Translations under genes and position numbers: made by a program
Origin: a virus
Virus record (IMG/VR): IMGVR_UViG_3300025245_000001
Coordinates: 1 to 42,746 of that record
Direction: 5' to 3' (one strand)
Length of the DNA stretch: 42,746 nt
In this document: one piece after another, positions 6,357 through 42,746 of the stretch
Layout: every line of letters starts with the position of its first letter
Numbering within the stretch: position 1 is the stretch's first letter
The notes under the pieces: model-generated
Seen by the model: only the letters and a program-made list of their open reading frames with translations
Told to the model about the DNA's origin: nothing
The model's database searches: none

Positions 6357-6755
6357 ATGAACGGAAATAGCGTTTCCAGATCCGGAAAGAACGGTTCCGA
6401 GGACAACATGACAAGCATGGCGTTGATTGAAGCAAAAGGCTGGGCTGAGGAACTCATGGACAGTGAGTTTCGCGGCCGTGGCGATAGGGAAAAATCTGCA
6501 AGATATCGGCTCTCCAAGAAAACCGGAGTGCCGGAAAGCTATCTCTTCCGTCTTCAATACAAGACGGCCGAGATGAAGGACGTAGCGGGCTCCGTCTATC
6601 GCGCTCTGATGATCGCCTATGACACCGCCTGCCGCGCGAACGAGGAAGCGGCGGACAAGTATCGGGCACAGCGCCTGGGACTGCGAGGACAGAATGAAAA
6701 GGCTGACGAAAAGCCTGCTTCGGCGGGCGTGGGAATGGATTCGTCTCAAAATTAA
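6357..6755 (+). CDS. Probable DNA-binding protein
   Basis: 132 residues. AGGGG precedes the ATG at 6357; MTSMALIEAK at 6408 is an alternative start. The centre (ARYRLSKKTGVPESYLFRLQ) looks like a helix-turn-helix, and the Arg/Lys-rich surroundings fit nucleic-acid binding. I recall similar proteins in rhizobial prophages as unnamed regulators. It starts 45 bp from the divergent gene at 6311. Confidence 0.7.
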   Translation: MNGNSVSRSGKNGSEDNMTSMALIEAKGWAEELMDSEFRGRGDREKSARYRLSKKTGVPESYLFRLQYKTAEMKDVAGSVYRALMIAYDTACRANEEAADKYRAQRLGLRGQNEKADEKPASAGVGMDSSQN

Positions 6756-6767
6756 GAGGATGCGGAA

Positions 6768-7418
6768 ATGAAGGTTCTGGTCGCCTGCGAATACTCCGGC
6801 CGAGTCCGTGACGCCTTCAGAGCACTCGGTCATGATGCCTGGTCGTGCGACATACTGCCGAGCGAGGCGGATCCTACATGGCACATAGAGGCGCCAGTGC
6901 AGTCCGTTTTGCATCTGAAGTGGGATCTGATGATCGCGCATCCGCCGTGCACCTACATGGCCAACAGCGGGGCGAAGCACCTCTATCTAGGCATGAAGAA
7001 GGAAAACGGCCGCAACGATGAGCGCTGGAAGAGCATGGAGGAGGCGGCAGCGTTTTTTCGTATGCTCCTGAGCGCGAAGATCCCGCACATCGCGATAGAG
7101 AACCCGGTCATGCTAGGCCATGCGGTCGGCCTGATCGGTCAGAACTTCACCCAGTCAATCCAGCCGTGGCAGTTCGGCCATATGGAGGTGAAGCGCACAT
7201 GTCTGTGGCTCAGGAACCTTCCACAGCTAGTCCCCAGCAACAATGTCTACGACGAGATGATGAGGCTCCCCTATGCGGAGCGCGCCAAGGTTCACCACGA
7301 AAGCCCCGGTCCCGATCGCTGGAAGAACCGCAGCCGGACCTACGCCGGCATAGCCGAGGCCATGGCCTCACAGTGGGCGCCATACGTCACCGGTAATCTT
7401 CAGCAACAGGCAGCCTAA
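6768..7418 (+). CDS. C5 cytosine methyltransferase-like protein without target domain
   Basis: 216 residues. MKVLVACEYSGRVRDAFRAL is a SAM-binding motif I as in DNA cytosine methyltransferases, and PPC at 59-61 supplies the motif IV cysteine (C61). ENP at 111-113 replaces the usual ENV. The C-terminal half is too short for a normal target-recognition domain. It may methylate phage DNA against restriction, or may have changed substrate. GAGGATGCGG precedes the ATG. Confidence 0.82.
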   Translation: MKVLVACEYSGRVRDAFRALGHDAWSCDILPSEADPTWHIEAPVQSVLHLKWDLMIAHPPCTYMANSGAKHLYLGMKKENGRNDERWKSMEEAAAFFRMLLSAKIPHIAIENPVMLGHAVGLIGQNFTQSIQPWQFGHMEVKRTCLWLRNLPQLVPSNNVYDEMMRLPYAERAKVHHESPGPDRWKNRSRTYAGIAEAMASQWAPYVTGNLQQQAA

Positions 7419-7460: not shown

Positions 7461-7775
7461 ATGACAAAGCCAAAGAGACGGAAGCTCAACAAGAATATCA
7501 TCGTTGCGTTCAACCGGCTGCATCGCAGCGGCCGTCTCCTCTGCCGTCAGTTCTCGCAGAGCGAAGAGGCGAAGACGATCGGCGGTAGCTACATCTACTT
7601 CACAGTTCGCGACAATGTGAAATTCCCGACTGGCGTTGGCCGGTTCCTGATCGAGAACGGCTTGGTCATCTCGTCATCTGACGGGCTCTTTGCCGATACG
7701 CCACAGACGTTCGAGGCCGTCGATAGGCCAGTTTTCGAACTATTCCGCGAACAATGGGAGGCACCAGCGCCATGA
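7461..7775 (+). CDS. Hypothetical 104-residue protein
   Basis: Not recognised. Lys/Arg-rich start (MTKPKRRKLNKNIIVAFNRL), then an alternating beta-like middle. It follows the methyltransferase-like gene after 42 bp with GGCGAG before the ATG, and overlaps the next gene by ATGA. Confidence 0.75.
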   Translation: MTKPKRRKLNKNIIVAFNRLHRSGRLLCRQFSQSEEAKTIGGSYIYFTVRDNVKFPTGVGRFLIENGLVISSSDGLFADTPQTFEAVDRPVFELFREQWEAPAP

Positions 7776-10911: not shown

Positions 10912-11523
10912 ATGGGCGGCAAGACTTCTTGGTACGCGTTGAGGCTCAAGCCAGGAGCGTCACGGCCATACAGGCACGATGAGCGCATCACAAATATCGA
11001 ATGGTCACTGAAGCGTGAGGGGATAGACTACTACATGCCGATGGAACTGGCGATGAAGATCCACCATCGTACAAAGAAGACGATCGACAAGCGCTTCCCG
11101 CTGATCCCTGGCTATGCCTTCATGCGGGCCATACCGGACGAACAGAACTGGAAGAAGGTCGCCGAATGCGATTTCGTCGCTTCGATCATCGGGGTAGGGG
11201 GAACACCGATCCCGCTCCCAACTGCCCAGATCGACCTAATCCAGATGGCAGAGACCAGCCTTCGCGATCTGTATGAGTACCACAAGGCGCTCAGGGCCTA
11301 TCAGGAAGAGCAACGGCTGCGCAAGGTGACCAGACGTGTCGCCGCTGAACAGTTCCCAGCAGGCGGCGTCGTCACCATCAGCAAGGAGCATAGGCTGTTC
11401 GCCGGCCGCCGTGCAACCATCGTCGCAGCCACAGGGCGGAATACGATCAAGGTCATCATCGAGAGGCTAAACGGACTCGCAAACGCAGAGATACCGATCG
11501 ACCTTGTGGATATGGCGAGCTAA
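10912..11523 (+). CDS. NusG-like transcription antiterminator
   Basis: 203 residues. N-terminal ~100 residues fit an NGN domain (SWYALRLKPGASRPYRHDER, then YYMPMELAMKIHHR and FPLIPGYAFMRAIP, as in NusG/RfaH). The C-terminal end (GGVVTISKEHRLFAGRRATI then IKVIIERLNG) fits a KOW domain. It is the last gene before the late region, so it probably plays the part of lambda Q: it rides on RNA polymerase and carries it through the 22-kb late operon. GAGGAAACC precedes the ATG. Confidence 0.85.
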   Translation: MGGKTSWYALRLKPGASRPYRHDERITNIEWSLKREGIDYYMPMELAMKIHHRTKKTIDKRFPLIPGYAFMRAIPDEQNWKKVAECDFVASIIGVGGTPIPLPTAQIDLIQMAETSLRDLYEYHKALRAYQEEQRLRKVTRRVAAEQFPAGGVVTISKEHRLFAGRRATIVAATGRNTIKVIIERLNGLANAEIPIDLVDMAS

Positions 11524-12333: not shown

Positions 12334-12537
12334 ATGAACAACGATTTCACCCTGAGACGAGCCAACAACGGTGGATGGGTACTCTCGGAAGGCGTGAATG
12401 ATGGGTCTTTGTGGCCCATTTATGCATTTTCCTCGACTGAGGATCTGTTGCGGGCTCTTCCTGAGATGCTGGAGAAGAAGCCGGCTGCTGGGTTTCAGCG
12501 AGGCGAGCAGTATCTCAACAAAAATAGCGCGCTATAG
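12334..12537 (+). CDS. Hypothetical 67-residue protein
   Basis: Not recognised. NNDFTLRRANNGGWVLSEGV followed by a helical end (DLLRALPEMLEKKPA). It converges with the BrnA-like gene with a 6-bp overlap, so it is probably the last gene before the late operon. Confidence 0.68.
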   Translation: MNNDFTLRRANNGGWVLSEGVNDGSLWPIYAFSSTEDLLRALPEMLEKKPAAGFQRGEQYLNKNSAL

Positions 12538-12804
12538 GCCGGCAGCCTTTCGCAGCGCCTCGTTCATGCGGGTTTGCCAGCCTTCGCCGGTAGATCTGAA
12601 ATGCTCAATCACCTGAGGATCAAGGCGAAGCGTCAAGAGCTTCTTGGCATTTGGATCTGGCTTTCTGCCGCTTTTGGTCTTCGGAGCCTTCAATGTCCCG
12701 TCAGCGGTATGCTGCAGGATAGATGACATCACTTTGTTTTCTGACCTCAACTGCTCTTTTCGAGCCTGAAATTTCTCTGGGCCGTTTGTGAATTTGATGG
12801 CCAT
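12532..12804 (-). CDS. BrnA-like antitoxin, no partner toxin
   Basis: 90 residues. The C-terminal part (KKLLTLRLDPQVIEHFRSTG, then EGWQTRMNEALRKAAGL) matches the ribbon-helix-helix-type DNA-binding end of BrnA/DUF4415 antitoxins. The N-terminal ~50 residues are basic and probably flexible. In normal loci brnT lies directly upstream of brnA; here that place holds the operator and the divergent late gene, so it is an orphan. It may autorepress, control the late region, or neutralise a host BrnT toxin. GAGGA precedes the ATG at 12804. Confidence 0.82.
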   Translation of the reverse strand: MAIKFTNGPEKFQARKEQLRSENKVMSSILQHTADGTLKAPKTKSGRKPDPNAKKLLTLRLDPQVIEHFRSTGEGWQTRMNEALRKAAGL

Positions 12805-12821
12805 GGCATTCCTCGCAATTT

Positions 12822-12861
12822 CGTAACTACGGCATTCTATCCCGTAACTACGGGAAGTCAA
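12822..12861 (-). promoter_or_regulatory. BrnA-like gene promoter with two operators
   Basis: Minus-strand -35 TTGACT (12861-12856), 16-bp spacer, -10 TAGAAT. The inverted repeat CCCGTAACTACGGG (12841-12854) fills the spacer, and its core CGTAACTACG recurs at 12822-12831, 21 bp away centre to centre, two helical turns on the same face. This is the expected arrangement for cooperative autorepression. Confidence 0.8.
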
Positions 12862-12877: not shown

Positions 12878-13141
12878 ATGGCAAGCGGCATCGACGAGAT
12901 CAAGCCGGCAGGCTACGTGTGGGCTGTCACACCCAGCGATAGTGCAGAACTGAAAAAGCACACCCGCGCTATCTTCGTTGGTGGCGCCGGCAACATTGCA
13001 GTGCGGGCATTCGACCCGGCAACAGATAAACTCGCCGACGTCACGATAACCGGTGTCCTGGCTGGTCAGATCATCCCAGTGCGTACGAAGATGGTTCTCC
13101 TCACTGGCACAACGGCGACTAACATCATCGCTCTGGCGTAA
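12878..13141 (+). CDS. Spike base protein, RcGTA Rcc01079-like
   Basis: 87-residue beta protein. VTPSDSAELKKHTRAIFVGG, then GNIAVRAF, VTITGVLAGQIIPVRTKMVL and LTGTTATNIIAL fit the small family found as a base of head spikes in the Rhodobacter gene transfer agent (Rcc01079). First gene of the late operon; GGAGAAATCC precedes the ATG. The virion role is inferred from the family. Confidence 0.78.
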   Translation: MASGIDEIKPAGYVWAVTPSDSAELKKHTRAIFVGGAGNIAVRAFDPATDKLADVTITGVLAGQIIPVRTKMVLLTGTTATNIIALA

Positions 13142-13216: not shown

Positions 13217-13504
13217 ATGGCCGGCAATGCAAACAGCGGGCGCAAGCAGGAAAAGCCCTTTCGCGATGCTCTCAGGATTGAACTCGCCGCAGCTGAGCTT
13301 GACCAGCGTGGGCTTCGCCTCATCGCCAAGAAGCTGATCTCTGCTGCGGAAGAGGGCAAGCTTGATGCAATCAAAGAGCTTGCTGACCGAATGGACGGGA
13401 AGTCGCCGCAAGCCATCGTCGGCGATGAAGAGAACCCGCTTGAGGTCATTCACCGTATCGAACGCCACATAGTCCGTGCGAACGCTCCAGATACCAACAG
13501 CTGA
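13217..13504 (+). CDS. Terminase small subunit
   Basis: 95 residues. MAGNANSGRKQEKPFRDAL with LIAKKLISAAEEGKLDAIKE at ~40-60 matches small subunits or terminase-associated DNA-binding proteins of rhizobial phages, and it lies directly before the large subunit with a 29-bp overlap. Probable role: recognises the pac site and recruits the large subunit. I chose the ATG at 13217 over the upstream frame that lacks a start signal. Confidence 0.75.
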   Translation: MAGNANSGRKQEKPFRDALRIELAAAELDQRGLRLIAKKLISAAEEGKLDAIKELADRMDGKSPQAIVGDEENPLEVIHRIERHIVRANAPDTNS

Positions 13505-14774
13505 GGTCTTCGAACCTCTCCTAACCCCATCTCGATACAAAGGCGCAAAGGGCGGGCGCGGTTCAGGGAAAAGCCATTTCTTCGGCGGCCTGATGATCGA
13601 GGATCATCTTGCAGAGCGCGGGATGCTTTCTGTCTGCATTCGTGAAGTCCAGAAAACCCTCGCGGACTCATCCAAGCGCCTGCTGGAAAGCAAGCTCGCA
13701 GATTTCCGCCTAGGTGAACCGGATGGGTTCAAAGTCTTCCGCGATACGATCGAAACGCCAGGAGATGGTGCGATCATCTTCCAGGGGATGCAGGATCACA
13801 CAGCGGAATCGATCAAGTCGCTCGAAGGCTTCAAGCGCGCTTGGTGGGAGGAAGCGCAGACAGCCTCGATGCGGTCCCTGAACCTTCTTCGGCCGACGAT
13901 CCGCGCACCTGGCTCCGAGATCTGGTTCAGCTGGAACCCGCGCCGCAAGGTTGATCCTGTCGACGTGATGATGTGTGGCGAGGAAAAGCCGACAGGTTCG
14001 GTGCTGGTCACCGCCAATTGGCGGGACAACCCATGGCTCACTCCTGAGCTTGAACAGGAACGTCTCGACTGCCTTCGCATGCAGCCCGATCAATACGACC
14101 ATATCTGGGAAGGTGGATATTTGACCGTGGCGGCCGGCGCATATTTCGCCAAACACCTTGCAGACGCCAAGAACGAAGGCCGCATAGGCAGGGTGGCCGC
14201 TGACCCGCTGATGACTATTCGGCTGATCTGCGACATTGGCGGGACGGGTGCAAAGGCCGACGCCTTCACGATCTGGGCCTGCCAGTTCATCGGCAAGGAA
14301 ATCCGCTGGCTCGATTATTACGAAGCTGTAGGCCAGCCGCTCGCAGCCCATCTCAACTGGTGCAGGTCCAAAGGCTACACGCCCGATCGCGCGCAATTCT
14401 GGTTGCCACACGACGGCTCAACCAACGACAAGGTTTATGACGTCTCCTACGAAAGCGCTCTGCGTGATGCAGGCTATCGAGTGACGGTGGTCCCCAACCA
14501 AGGCAAAGGCGCTGCTGCGGCTCGCATCGAAGCTGCCCGCAGGCTGTTCCCGAACATGTGGTTCAACGCCGACACGACAGAAGCGGGACGCGCCGCTCTC
14601 GGCTGGTATCACGAAAAGAAAGACGAGGCTCGGGGCATCGGCCTCGGTCCTGAGCACGATTGGGCCTCTCATGGTGCGGATGGCTTTGGCCTCGGCTGCG
14701 TCGTCTACGAAGAGCCTATAGCAAAGAAGAAGCAGGATCCGCGCAACGCGGTCGCCGGCGGCTGGATGGGATGA
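13476..14774 (+). CDS. Terminase large subunit
   Basis: 432 residues, GTG start at 13476. ATPase: Walker A GGRGSGKS at 26-33, Walker B AWWEEAQ with acidic pair E125/E126. Nuclease: DIGGTGAKADAFTIW from D253, further acidic residues (HDG and DADTTEAG regions) toward the C-terminus. This is the PBSX/Terminase_3 type that pumps DNA into the procapsid and cuts it. In P22-like phages packaging is headful, giving circularly permuted DNA, which agrees with the circular assembly. Confidence 0.95.
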   Translation: MRTLQIPTAEVFEPLLTPSRYKGAKGGRGSGKSHFFGGLMIEDHLAERGMLSVCIREVQKTLADSSKRLLESKLADFRLGEPDGFKVFRDTIETPGDGAIIFQGMQDHTAESIKSLEGFKRAWWEEAQTASMRSLNLLRPTIRAPGSEIWFSWNPRRKVDPVDVMMCGEEKPTGSVLVTANWRDNPWLTPELEQERLDCLRMQPDQYDHIWEGGYLTVAAGAYFAKHLADAKNEGRIGRVAADPLMTIRLICDIGGTGAKADAFTIWACQFIGKEIRWLDYYEAVGQPLAAHLNWCRSKGYTPDRAQFWLPHDGSTNDKVYDVSYESALRDAGYRVTVVPNQGKGAAAARIEAARRLFPNMWFNADTTEAGRAALGWYHEKKDEARGIGLGPEHDWASHGADGFGLGCVVYEEPIAKKKQDPRNAVAGGWMG

Positions 14775-14777
14775 TTC

Positions 14778-16832
14778 ATGGCTGATATGGAAGACATCCT
14801 GACCGAAGCCAAAGAAGCGTTTCAGCGCGTCTCTGACTTTGAGAACGAGAACCGCATGACGGCGCTCGACGATATCAGGTTTTCCCGCCTCGAAGAGCAA
14901 TGGCCGGCGCAGATCGTCAAGCAGCGCGAGATCGAGCAGCGGCCGTGCCTGACCATCAACAAGATGCCGGCCTTCATTCGCCAGGTCGTCAACGATAGCA
15001 GACAGAACAAGCCATCGATCAAGGTGCATCCTGTCGATAGCGCCGCCGATGTTCACACCGCCGACGTGATGAACGGCCTGATCCGCAATATCGAATATAC
15101 CTCGAATGCCGATGTTGCCTATGACACGGCGATCGAGGCCAGCGTCTCAGGCGGCTTCGGCTATTGGAGAATCGGCCTCGATTACGCCTATGCCGACAGT
15201 TTCGACCTCGATCTCTGCATCAAGCGCGTCTCGAACCAGTTCTCGGTCTATGGTGACCCTGACAGCACGGAAGCGGATTCGTCCGACTGGAACAGCGCCT
15301 TCATCGTTGACCGCCTCAGCCGAGAGGAGTTCAAGCGCAAATACAAGGGCGCGAAGAACATCGAGGATGATGACGTCGCCATCGATTTCGACAGTGATGC
15401 GTGGGACCGCTCGAACGATTGGCTCGATGACAAGACGGTGCTGATCGGCGAATGGTGGAAGCGCGAAGAGACCACCAAGAAAATCGTCCTGCTCTCGGAC
15501 GGGCGCATTGTCGACGAGGATCTGATCAAGTCAGACCCGATGACGATGGTCTTGATCAATAACGGCGTGATTCAGGTCCAGCGCGAACGCGAGGCCAAGT
15601 CGCACAAGGTCACGCAATACATCATGACCGGCGCCGACGTCATCAAGACGAACGACTGGCTCGGCTGCTATATCCCGATCGTCCCCGTCTATGGCGACGA
15701 GATCATAGTTGAGGGCAAGCGCTATTTCCGAAGCCTCATTCACGGGGCCAAGGATGCGCAGCGCATGTTCAACTATTGGCGTACCACGTCGACAGAACTT
15801 GTTGCGCTGGCGCCGAAGACGCCATGGATCGGCCGCAAGGGCACATTTGACAGTGACGCGAGCAATTGGGCAACGGCGAACACGACAAGCCACGCCTATC
15901 TTGAATATGATAGCGACGCGCCACAGCGCATCCCGCTAGACAGCGGGCCGGCGGCCGGCGCTCTGCAGGAGGCTTTGAACTCTTCCGACGACATGAAATC
16001 GATCATGGGCATCTATGACGCTTCGCTTGGTGCTCGTTCGAACGAAACCAGCGGCAAGGCCATCATGGCTCGCCAGCGGGAAGGGGATGTTGCGACATTC
16101 CACTTCATCGACAACCTGTCGCGCGCCATTCGCCATACCGGTCGCATCCTGATCGACATGATTCCGAAGGTCTATACCAATGAGCGCATTATCCGCGTGA
16201 TCGGCGAAGACGGCTCACAGCGCGCCGCTACTATCAACGCGCAAGAGCCGAAGCCGCAGCTTGACCAGAATGGCCAGCCGGTCGTCACCGCTCAAGGCGA
16301 GACGCTTCAGGGCGTCTACAGCCTGACGACCGGCAAATACGATCTCACCGTCACCACTGGCCCGAGCTTCACCACACGCCGCGAAGAGGCTGCCTACCAG
16401 ATGACTGAGTTTGTTCGGGCGTTCCCGGATGCCGCTCCTGTTATCGGTGACATTCTGGCGAAGAACCTCGATTGGCCAGGTGCTGAAGAGATTGCCGAGC
16501 GTCTGAAGGCGATCAACCCTGCGCTGAAGCAACAGCAGGGTTTGCCGCCTGAAGTGCAGCAGATGATCCAAGATGGTCAGCAGGCCATTCAGGAACTGAC
16601 GCAGAAGGTCCAGGCGCTGGAAGCCGATAAGAGCATCGACCAGTTCAACGCCGACACGAAGCGGATGGAGGTCGAAGGTGACCTTCGCAACGAAGCTATA
16701 AGGATTCGGCAGGACGCAGAAACAAAGGTGACGACGCACGCTTTGACCGTCGCTCAGAAGGCCGAACAGGCCCATCAATCAAGCATCGCCAAGGCCAATC
16801 AGGCCTTACAAGCTCCCACGCGCCAAGGGTAA
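14778..16832 (+). CDS. Portal protein, P22 type
   Basis: 684 residues, close to P22 gp1 (725). The N-terminal part (DDIRFSRLEEQWPAQIVKQR, then RPCLTINKMPAFIRQVVND) is the family's typical start; the C-terminus ends in a long Gln/Glu-rich helix (QQMIQDGQQAIQELTQKVQA), the likely barrel. Forms the dodecameric channel at the vertex. Directly behind the large terminase. Confidence 0.93.
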   Translation: MADMEDILTEAKEAFQRVSDFENENRMTALDDIRFSRLEEQWPAQIVKQREIEQRPCLTINKMPAFIRQVVNDSRQNKPSIKVHPVDSAADVHTADVMNGLIRNIEYTSNADVAYDTAIEASVSGGFGYWRIGLDYAYADSFDLDLCIKRVSNQFSVYGDPDSTEADSSDWNSAFIVDRLSREEFKRKYKGAKNIEDDDVAIDFDSDAWDRSNDWLDDKTVLIGEWWKREETTKKIVLLSDGRIVDEDLIKSDPMTMVLINNGVIQVQREREAKSHKVTQYIMTGADVIKTNDWLGCYIPIVPVYGDEIIVEGKRYFRSLIHGAKDAQRMFNYWRTTSTELVALAPKTPWIGRKGTFDSDASNWATANTTSHAYLEYDSDAPQRIPLDSGPAAGALQEALNSSDDMKSIMGIYDASLGARSNETSGKAIMARQREGDVATFHFIDNLSRAIRHTGRILIDMIPKVYTNERIIRVIGEDGSQRAATINAQEPKPQLDQNGQPVVTAQGETLQGVYSLTTGKYDLTVTTGPSFTTRREEAAYQMTEFVRAFPDAAPVIGDILAKNLDWPGAEEIAERLKAINPALKQQQGLPPEVQQMIQDGQQAIQELTQKVQALEADKSIDQFNADTKRMEVEGDLRNEAIRIRQDAETKVTTHALTVAQKAEQAHQSSIAKANQALQAPTRQG

Positions 16833-42523: not shown

Positions 42524-42746
42524 TCAGTCGTCTTCGTTTTCAGAACCGCCGTTGCCGTCGCCGTTGCCGTAGCCGTAGCCGTTGCCGTTGCCGTTGCCGT
42601 TGCCGTCGCCGTTGCCGTAGCCGTTGCCGTTGCCGTTGCCGTAGCCGTCGCCGTTGCCGTTGCCGTAGCCGTTGCCGTTGCCGTTGCCGTAGCCGTTGCC
42701 GTCGCCGTTGCCGTAGCCGTAGCCGTTGCCGTTGCCGTTGCCGTTG
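42524..42746 (-). CDS. Gly-Asn/Asp/Tyr repeat protein, C-terminal part
   Basis: Continuation of the gene that starts at 344 and leaves the window at base 1. Thirty-two more dipeptide units, then GGSENEDD and TGA at 42526-42524. The combined protein is about 190 residues with roughly 120 of low complexity. The acidic end recalls acidic tips of single-strand binding proteins only loosely. Confidence 0.85.
   Translation of the reverse strand, partial: NGNGNGNGYGYGNGDGNGYGNGNGNGYGNGNGDGYGNGNGNGYGNGDGNGNGNGNGYGYGNGDGNGGSENEDD
42551..42746. repeat. Hexanucleotide tandem array, second part
   Basis: Thirty-two units of GTTGCC, GTAGCC or GTCGCC plus four bases, same phase as the array at 1-162. TTG-type units (Asn on the minus strand) are the most frequent in both halves. 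No unit departs from the scheme. Confidence 0.95.

Follow-up and report, generated by a model that had tools for sequence, protein, structure and literature searches.

What does an antitoxin gene do in a phage that carries no toxin for it? The question is raised by a small gene in the virus record IMGVR_UViG_3300025245_000001 of IMG/VR, which was analysed over its whole length of 42,746 nucleotides (here called the window). The original prediction had placed an orphan BrnA-like antitoxin at 12532-12861. The gene itself is real, but that span joined gene and promoter: the coding part, on the minus strand, occupies only 12532-12804, with the ATG at 12804 and the stop codon at 12532-12534, and specifies 90 amino acids. 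The protein matches the BrnA antitoxin family PF14384 with 69.3 bits (cut-off 26.1; profile positions 23-68 of 68), its sole Pfam match, and it showed no membership of the Arc family PF03869. It also matches phrog_4692, named "antitoxin". In NCBIfam no match was found for this protein, nor for a BrnT-paired BrnA. A sequence search gave no solved relatives of BrnA, the best hits (E 0.34 and 0.5) bearing unrelated names, and the solved chain 7vd7, named "toxin", matched BrnT. The ribbon-helix-helix (RHH) domain comprises approximately residues 55-88 and the variable N-terminus residues 1-45. In the AlphaFold model (mean pLDDT 69, pTM 0.33) the RHH end has two helices, residues 63-71 and 76-88, and the N-terminal helix is of low confidence.

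The founding paper on BrnT and BrnA is reportedly that of Heaton et al. 2012. The toxin family, BrnT (PF04365), has no match beside the gene or elsewhere in the 42,746-base record, and the description of the gene as an orphan is well supported. Approximately 700 bp of the minus strand 3' of brnA contain no open reading frame longer than 55 amino acids. Among viral contigs a search returned 22 loci, seven of which (L002-L008) have the window's architecture, and a profile search recovered the same seven contigs and added L235 and L236. Genome contigs contributed one close and one divergent match. The close one lies in a prophage of Rhizobium sp. J15 (L148), whose BrnA does not differ from that of L006; the divergent one, from Novacetimonas hansenii (L149), has two sites 106 bp apart and not in the paired layout. 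The original prediction had proposed a search for a lost brnT in relatives: no PF04365 match was found in the records of nine relatives, several of which are fragments of 8-14 kb. In the wider set BrnT was present in 14 of 26 records. In a tree of the short domain the orphans group together (SH-aLRT 89-93, no starred branch), with alphaproteobacterial paired BrnAs as their neighbours.

The gene has a promoter of its own. On the minus strand the promoter scan found TTGACT-16-TAGAAT (12861-12834), consisting of a -35-like hexamer at 12856-12861 and a -10-like hexamer at 12834-12839, with one operator inside the spacer. This operator, O1 (CGTAGTTACG, 12843-12852), belongs to a longer inverted repeat, CCCGTAACTACGGG (12841-12854), and a second one, O2 (again CGTAGTTACG, 12822-12831), lies just 3' of the -10 hexamer and covers the likely transcription start. 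Read from the letters, a ribosome-binding-like GAGG (12811-12814, minus) stands ahead of the ATG. A two-operator promoter, with one site in the -35/-10 spacer and a second 21 bp off, had been predicted, and both exact sites were found there: the window has just two copies of CGTAACTACG, these two sites 21 bp apart, and allowing one mismatch added none. Single sites are unremarkable (on average 0.81 matches with at most one mismatch per shuffled window), but two same-strand copies of GTAGTTAC within 40 bp occurred in none of 300 dinucleotide shuffles, so that the pair is not due to chance. One GTAGCTAC site, at position 7585 of the window, has flanking Y/R that do not fit and was taken as chance.

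The pair is also conserved. It was found 5' of the start codon in all nine aligned loci (the window, L002-L008 and L235), the nearer operator being 23-29 bp from the start codon, and the spacing is 21 or 22 bp in eight of them; L003 is the exception, with 13 bp and no clear -10. The retention of the two sites in the window and eight relatives speaks well for the autoregulation that had been proposed. A wide operator search in viral contigs returned at least 120 stretches, mostly chance, of which four were kept after filtering. Three were BrnA loci (L065, L111 and L115, by sequence the same genes as L004, L002 and L005) and the fourth, L030, was not. In another rejected candidate, L027, the operator pair lies inside a coding gene unrelated to brnA.

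The palindrome GTANNTAC also precedes brnT in many genuine operons (Burkholderiales, Rhizobiales and others), often twice, and by their letters the window's operators are of the type used by genuine brnTA operons. Many alphaproteobacterial brnTA operators have other centres, e.g., GTATATAC, and no exact operator copy was present in 61 of 176 and 30 of 53 loci of two sets, orphans included. What distinguishes the phage loci is the spacing. In the paired operons with two exact sites it is 33-37 bp in 39 of 39 cases and 30-37 bp in four of four more. The 13 rows labelled orphan comprise eight at 21-22 bp, L003 at 13 bp, L236 at 8 bp (between GTATATAC sites), L149 at 106 bp and two at 35 bp, namely L266, which another listing gives as paired, and L288. 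Read from the letters, paired promoters often have a TTGC-like -35 between the sites and a TACAAT overlapping the second site; in the phage lineage the spacer contains O1, and O2 follows the -10. The operator was thus kept and the promoter geometry changed. According to a review (PMC5086665), BrnT and BrnA form a 2:2 complex that binds its own promoter and represses it. A distance of approximately 35 bp would suit a BrnT-containing complex, and 21-22 bp would suit neighbouring toxin-free dimers.

The operator appears to serve this one promoter only. In nine orphan records (approximately 260 kb) YGTARYTACR matches 18 times, twice per record and never outside the brnA promoter, against eight matches of the reversed control pattern. 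The tenth orphan record, that of L236, contains zero YGTARYTACR sites, and across the ten records no second phage target was found with this pattern besides the gene's own promoter. In the J15 genome (6.7 Mb) the tandem pattern was found once, at the prophage brnA, in a register of 18-32 bp that does not cover the 33-37 bp of brnTA. Since the operator lies only at its own promoter in the nine records, any wider control would need to act locally or via the host.

If the DNA-reading end is kept, is the toxin-binding end as well? The RHH domain sits C-terminally in BrnA, according to PMC11980606, and from this position we infer that the N-terminal segment contacts BrnT. With a random split, a profile of the N-terminal segments of BrnT-paired proteins gave more than 10 bits for 119 of 121 held-out paired proteins and 0.6 bits for the window protein. 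Trained on the paired set, the profile scored all 44 paired proteins from the order and phylum searches above 99% of shuffles, a favourable sample since they had been chosen by high Pfam score, and likewise 18 of 20 scored BrnAs from Rhizobium loci chosen by BrnT. The window protein received -1.3 bits, and nine of ten orphans fell under the 99% shuffle level, the exception being L236 with 9.1. When whole clusters were held out, the profile recognised only 51 of 119 paired proteins above shuffles, one cluster accounting for 97 of the 119; the segment varies, so that failure to find it by profile suggests its absence but does not prove it. The window BrnA thus seems to be without the N-terminal segment common to BrnT-paired BrnAs, and as judged from its sequence it is not convincing as a neutraliser of BrnT.

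The segment is kept in some other proteins without a nearby BrnT (L009, L206, L210, L268 and L288), some of them near contig ends, which are a different matter from the phage orphan lineage. One of these, the BrnA-like gene at L288:5854-6156, has no BrnT within 300 bp and sites 35 bp apart, perhaps as a result of recent loss or of a contig-edge effect.

Selection has acted on the two ends as follows. Compared with its eight relatives over 32 codons of the RHH domain, the window shows 0-5 amino acid differences, much synonymous change and a dN/dS of 0.00-0.12, values that indicate strong purifying selection on the RHH end. For the N-terminus dN/dS was 0.12-0.39 in the five of eight pairs in which it was computable, synonymous change being saturated in the other three, and these five pairs gave no sign of positive selection.

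The record further contains an integrase, Erf and YqaJ recombination genes, a NusG-domain antiterminator-family gene, terminase and portal, and at the DNA level three Rhizobium phages cover 3-7% of an 8 kb query. The gene had been assigned to the border of early and late genes, and this is where it lies: its slot is between the antiterminator-family gene (10912-11523, plus) and the terminase genes, antisense to the late genes. Its divergent neighbour (12878-13141, plus) encodes a small protein of tail-fibre type (phrog_12296), followed by a small protein at the position of the terminase small subunit, named by position only (13217-13504, plus), and the terminase large subunit (13476-14774, plus), both late genes that brnA opposes, and then by the portal gene (14778-16832). 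The NusG domain (PF02357, 54 bits) of the antiterminator-family gene, standing before the late genes, suggests that late control may use a NusG paralogue. To view the slot in relatives, the window's genes were searched against the orphan-lineage loci, L148 being left out as a repeat of L232. Relatives of terminase, spike or portal were found on one side of brnA in eight of ten views (L228-L232 and L234-L236), always on the strand opposite brnA, with L233 and L149 as exceptions to the layout; replication or antiterminator-side relatives were on the other side in six of ten.

The content of the slot varies among phages. RHph_Y25 has no annotated brnA between the corresponding genes. Rhizobium phage RHph_N3_2 (L024) has a shortened BrnA-like gene at 2023-2271, annotated as DUF4415, near terminase and without an operator pair; its C-terminus resembles BrnAs of Rhizobium brnTA operons, e.g., L318, and this points to an independent acquisition. 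A complete antisense brnTA lies by Rha/antirepressor genes in the Bordetella phages IFTN4 and PHB09 (L025, L026), in PHB09 beside Rha and terminase and with brnA annotated merely as hypothetical. The absent, the short and the full version together give the picture of a moron slot. In L235 an Arc-type RHH gene (6487-6798; PF03869, 40 bits) lies in the same slot, on the same strand and 3' of the orphan brnA, and is a second small repressor in the moron.

We consider it reasonably probable that the window brnA is a stand-alone, self-repressing RHH regulator derived from BrnA, and that the phage carries it as a moron in the slot that separates the antiterminator-family gene from terminase. The lineage would have lost BrnT and the N-terminal toxin-binding segment, re-spaced its operators and kept the DNA-binding end. 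A sigma-70-type promoter would make brnA as a separate transcription unit, antisense to the terminase genes and presumably expressed in the lysogen. O1, in the spacer, and O2, at the start site, are separated by two helical turns and hence lie on the same face of the DNA; BrnA dimers would occupy both and shut the promoter, so that the protein is held low and steady. The exceptions L003 (spacing and -10) and L236 (operator centre, spacing and N-terminal score) count against this reading, as does the small benefit that control of its own promoter alone would seem to offer the phage. By analogy with the P22 ant moron, the role beyond self-control is probably a local effect on opposing late transcription, in that the leftward promoter and the bound repressor would temper rightward transcription into the terminase genes.

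The P22 repressors Arc and Mnt are RHH proteins. According to PMC2629481 both are small phage repressors in the immI/ant moron within the late region, and this moron has been proposed to affect late read-through into the tailspike gene; a title cited there refers to the autogenous control of Arc. Similarly to genes of the Arc/Mnt type, the window brnA has its own promoter and operators in a variable slot of the late region. However, its product is of the BrnA branch of RHH and not Arc, no antirepressor gene was identified with it, and its slot lies before terminase, that of P22 before the tailspike. With BrnT-BrnA operons (PF04365, PF14384) it shares the RHH end, the operators and, putatively, autorepression, but it is single, without BrnT and without a recognisable toxin-binding N-terminus, and its operators flank the -10 at a spacing of 21-22 bp, where those of the operons stand 30-37 bp apart. 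Orphan antitoxins in genome surveys likewise have no neighbouring toxin, and a regulator role is suggested for them in PMC12654330 and PMC7354431; here, in contrast, there is a defined phage lineage with a conserved operator layout and slot.

The original prediction had offered, as one of two readings, that the gene blocks a host BrnT. It would then be a decoy antitoxin that, in infection or in the lysogen, neutralises a BrnT made by the host or by a rival element, its N-terminus having diverged to fit different toxins. The variable N-terminus beside a constant RHH end would fit this, a BrnT match was found in 53 of 148 searched genomes of J15's genus, and orphan antitoxins are often proposed as anti-addiction factors (PMC7354431). 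T4 Dmd and the phage mimic countering DarTG are phage genes of the antitoxin kind too; those neutralise a toxin, whereas here the toxin-binding part appears lost. Indeed, a paired-type N-terminal segment is not detectable in the window protein, the N-terminal dN/dS values carry no mark of positive selection, and J15, the one named host genome with such a prophage, has no BrnT match. The N-terminal profile and the J15 genome thus demote the decoy as the main reading; unsupported by the sequence and weakened, it is now rather unlikely.

Alternatively, the protein could be made in the lysogen and directed outwards, silencing brnTA modules, resident in the host or incoming, through their GTAGTTAC operators, or else acting on the promoters of related phages. 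The operator is of the same type as in brnTA promoters, and TGTAGTTACA lies upstream in two of 30 Rhizobium BrnT loci examined (L298 and L304); yet in J15 the tandem pattern, in the register that was searched, is found only at the prophage gene, and many alphaproteobacterial brnTA operators are centred otherwise. We regard such a target as unlikely. A decaying remnant of an antitoxin after loss of brnT is very improbable: the gene of RHph_N3_2, shortened and without operator pair in the corresponding slot, looks remnant-like, and the full antisense brnTA of the Bordetella phages would fit as well, but the low dN/dS of the RHH end amid much synonymous change and the operators kept at their distance from the start codon in nine of nine aligned loci speak against decay here. 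The self-repressing regulator remains the reading that we prefer.

The comparison of loci also yielded a possible rule of operator specificity in the BrnA family. Asymmetric operator centres (GT/AC, CA/TG) mostly go with a T before xR[YLF]D in the RHH strand, and symmetric ones (GC, TA) with an S. In set A the counts are 50:2 for T and 2:35 for S, and in set B 10:2 and 2:9 (Fisher p 0.003). The likeness of set B rows to set A, measured as identity times coverage, is 47-68%, apart from a single row at 81%. These counts leave out the rows without an exact site (the 61 of 176 and 30 of 53 above), those with Q (five) or K (one) at the residue and those in which the pattern found no strand. A tree-aware test had one usable pair on supported branches and thus no power against shared descent. 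The window obeys the rule, with T and a GT centre, and L236 (S, TA) differs from the other orphans (T, mostly GT) in both residue and operator centre.

It is possible, and we propose it tentatively, that the antitoxin was turned into a pure transcription factor: toxin and toxin-binding end were shed, the operators were re-spaced for toxin-free dimers, within the lineage the operator centre and one DNA-contact residue switched together (GTATATAC and S in L236, GTAGTTAC and T in the other orphans), and the bound antisense promoter became a local gate on late transcription before terminase. Neither a phage lineage with BrnA alone nor a T/S operator rule was found described in the literature that was searched. 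If true, this would show, clearly and testably, how an antitoxin can be domesticated into a regulator that stands alone, each step being legible in the sequence: toxin lost, toxin-contact segment lost, operators re-spaced and DNA-reading end retained. In addition, a simple residue-operator rule would make it easier to foresee cross-talk between the many brnTA modules that bacteria and phages carry.

Two minor observations concern other sequences. In Paracoccus cavernae (L158, L159) a single open frame spans BrnT-like and BrnA-like parts and may be a fused brnTA such as PMC11980606 describes. The window itself ends in six-base repeat arrays, TTGCCG at 1-163 and GCCGTT at 42548-42746, with 27 and 33 copies, respectively, as if one array had been split when a circular assembly was opened.
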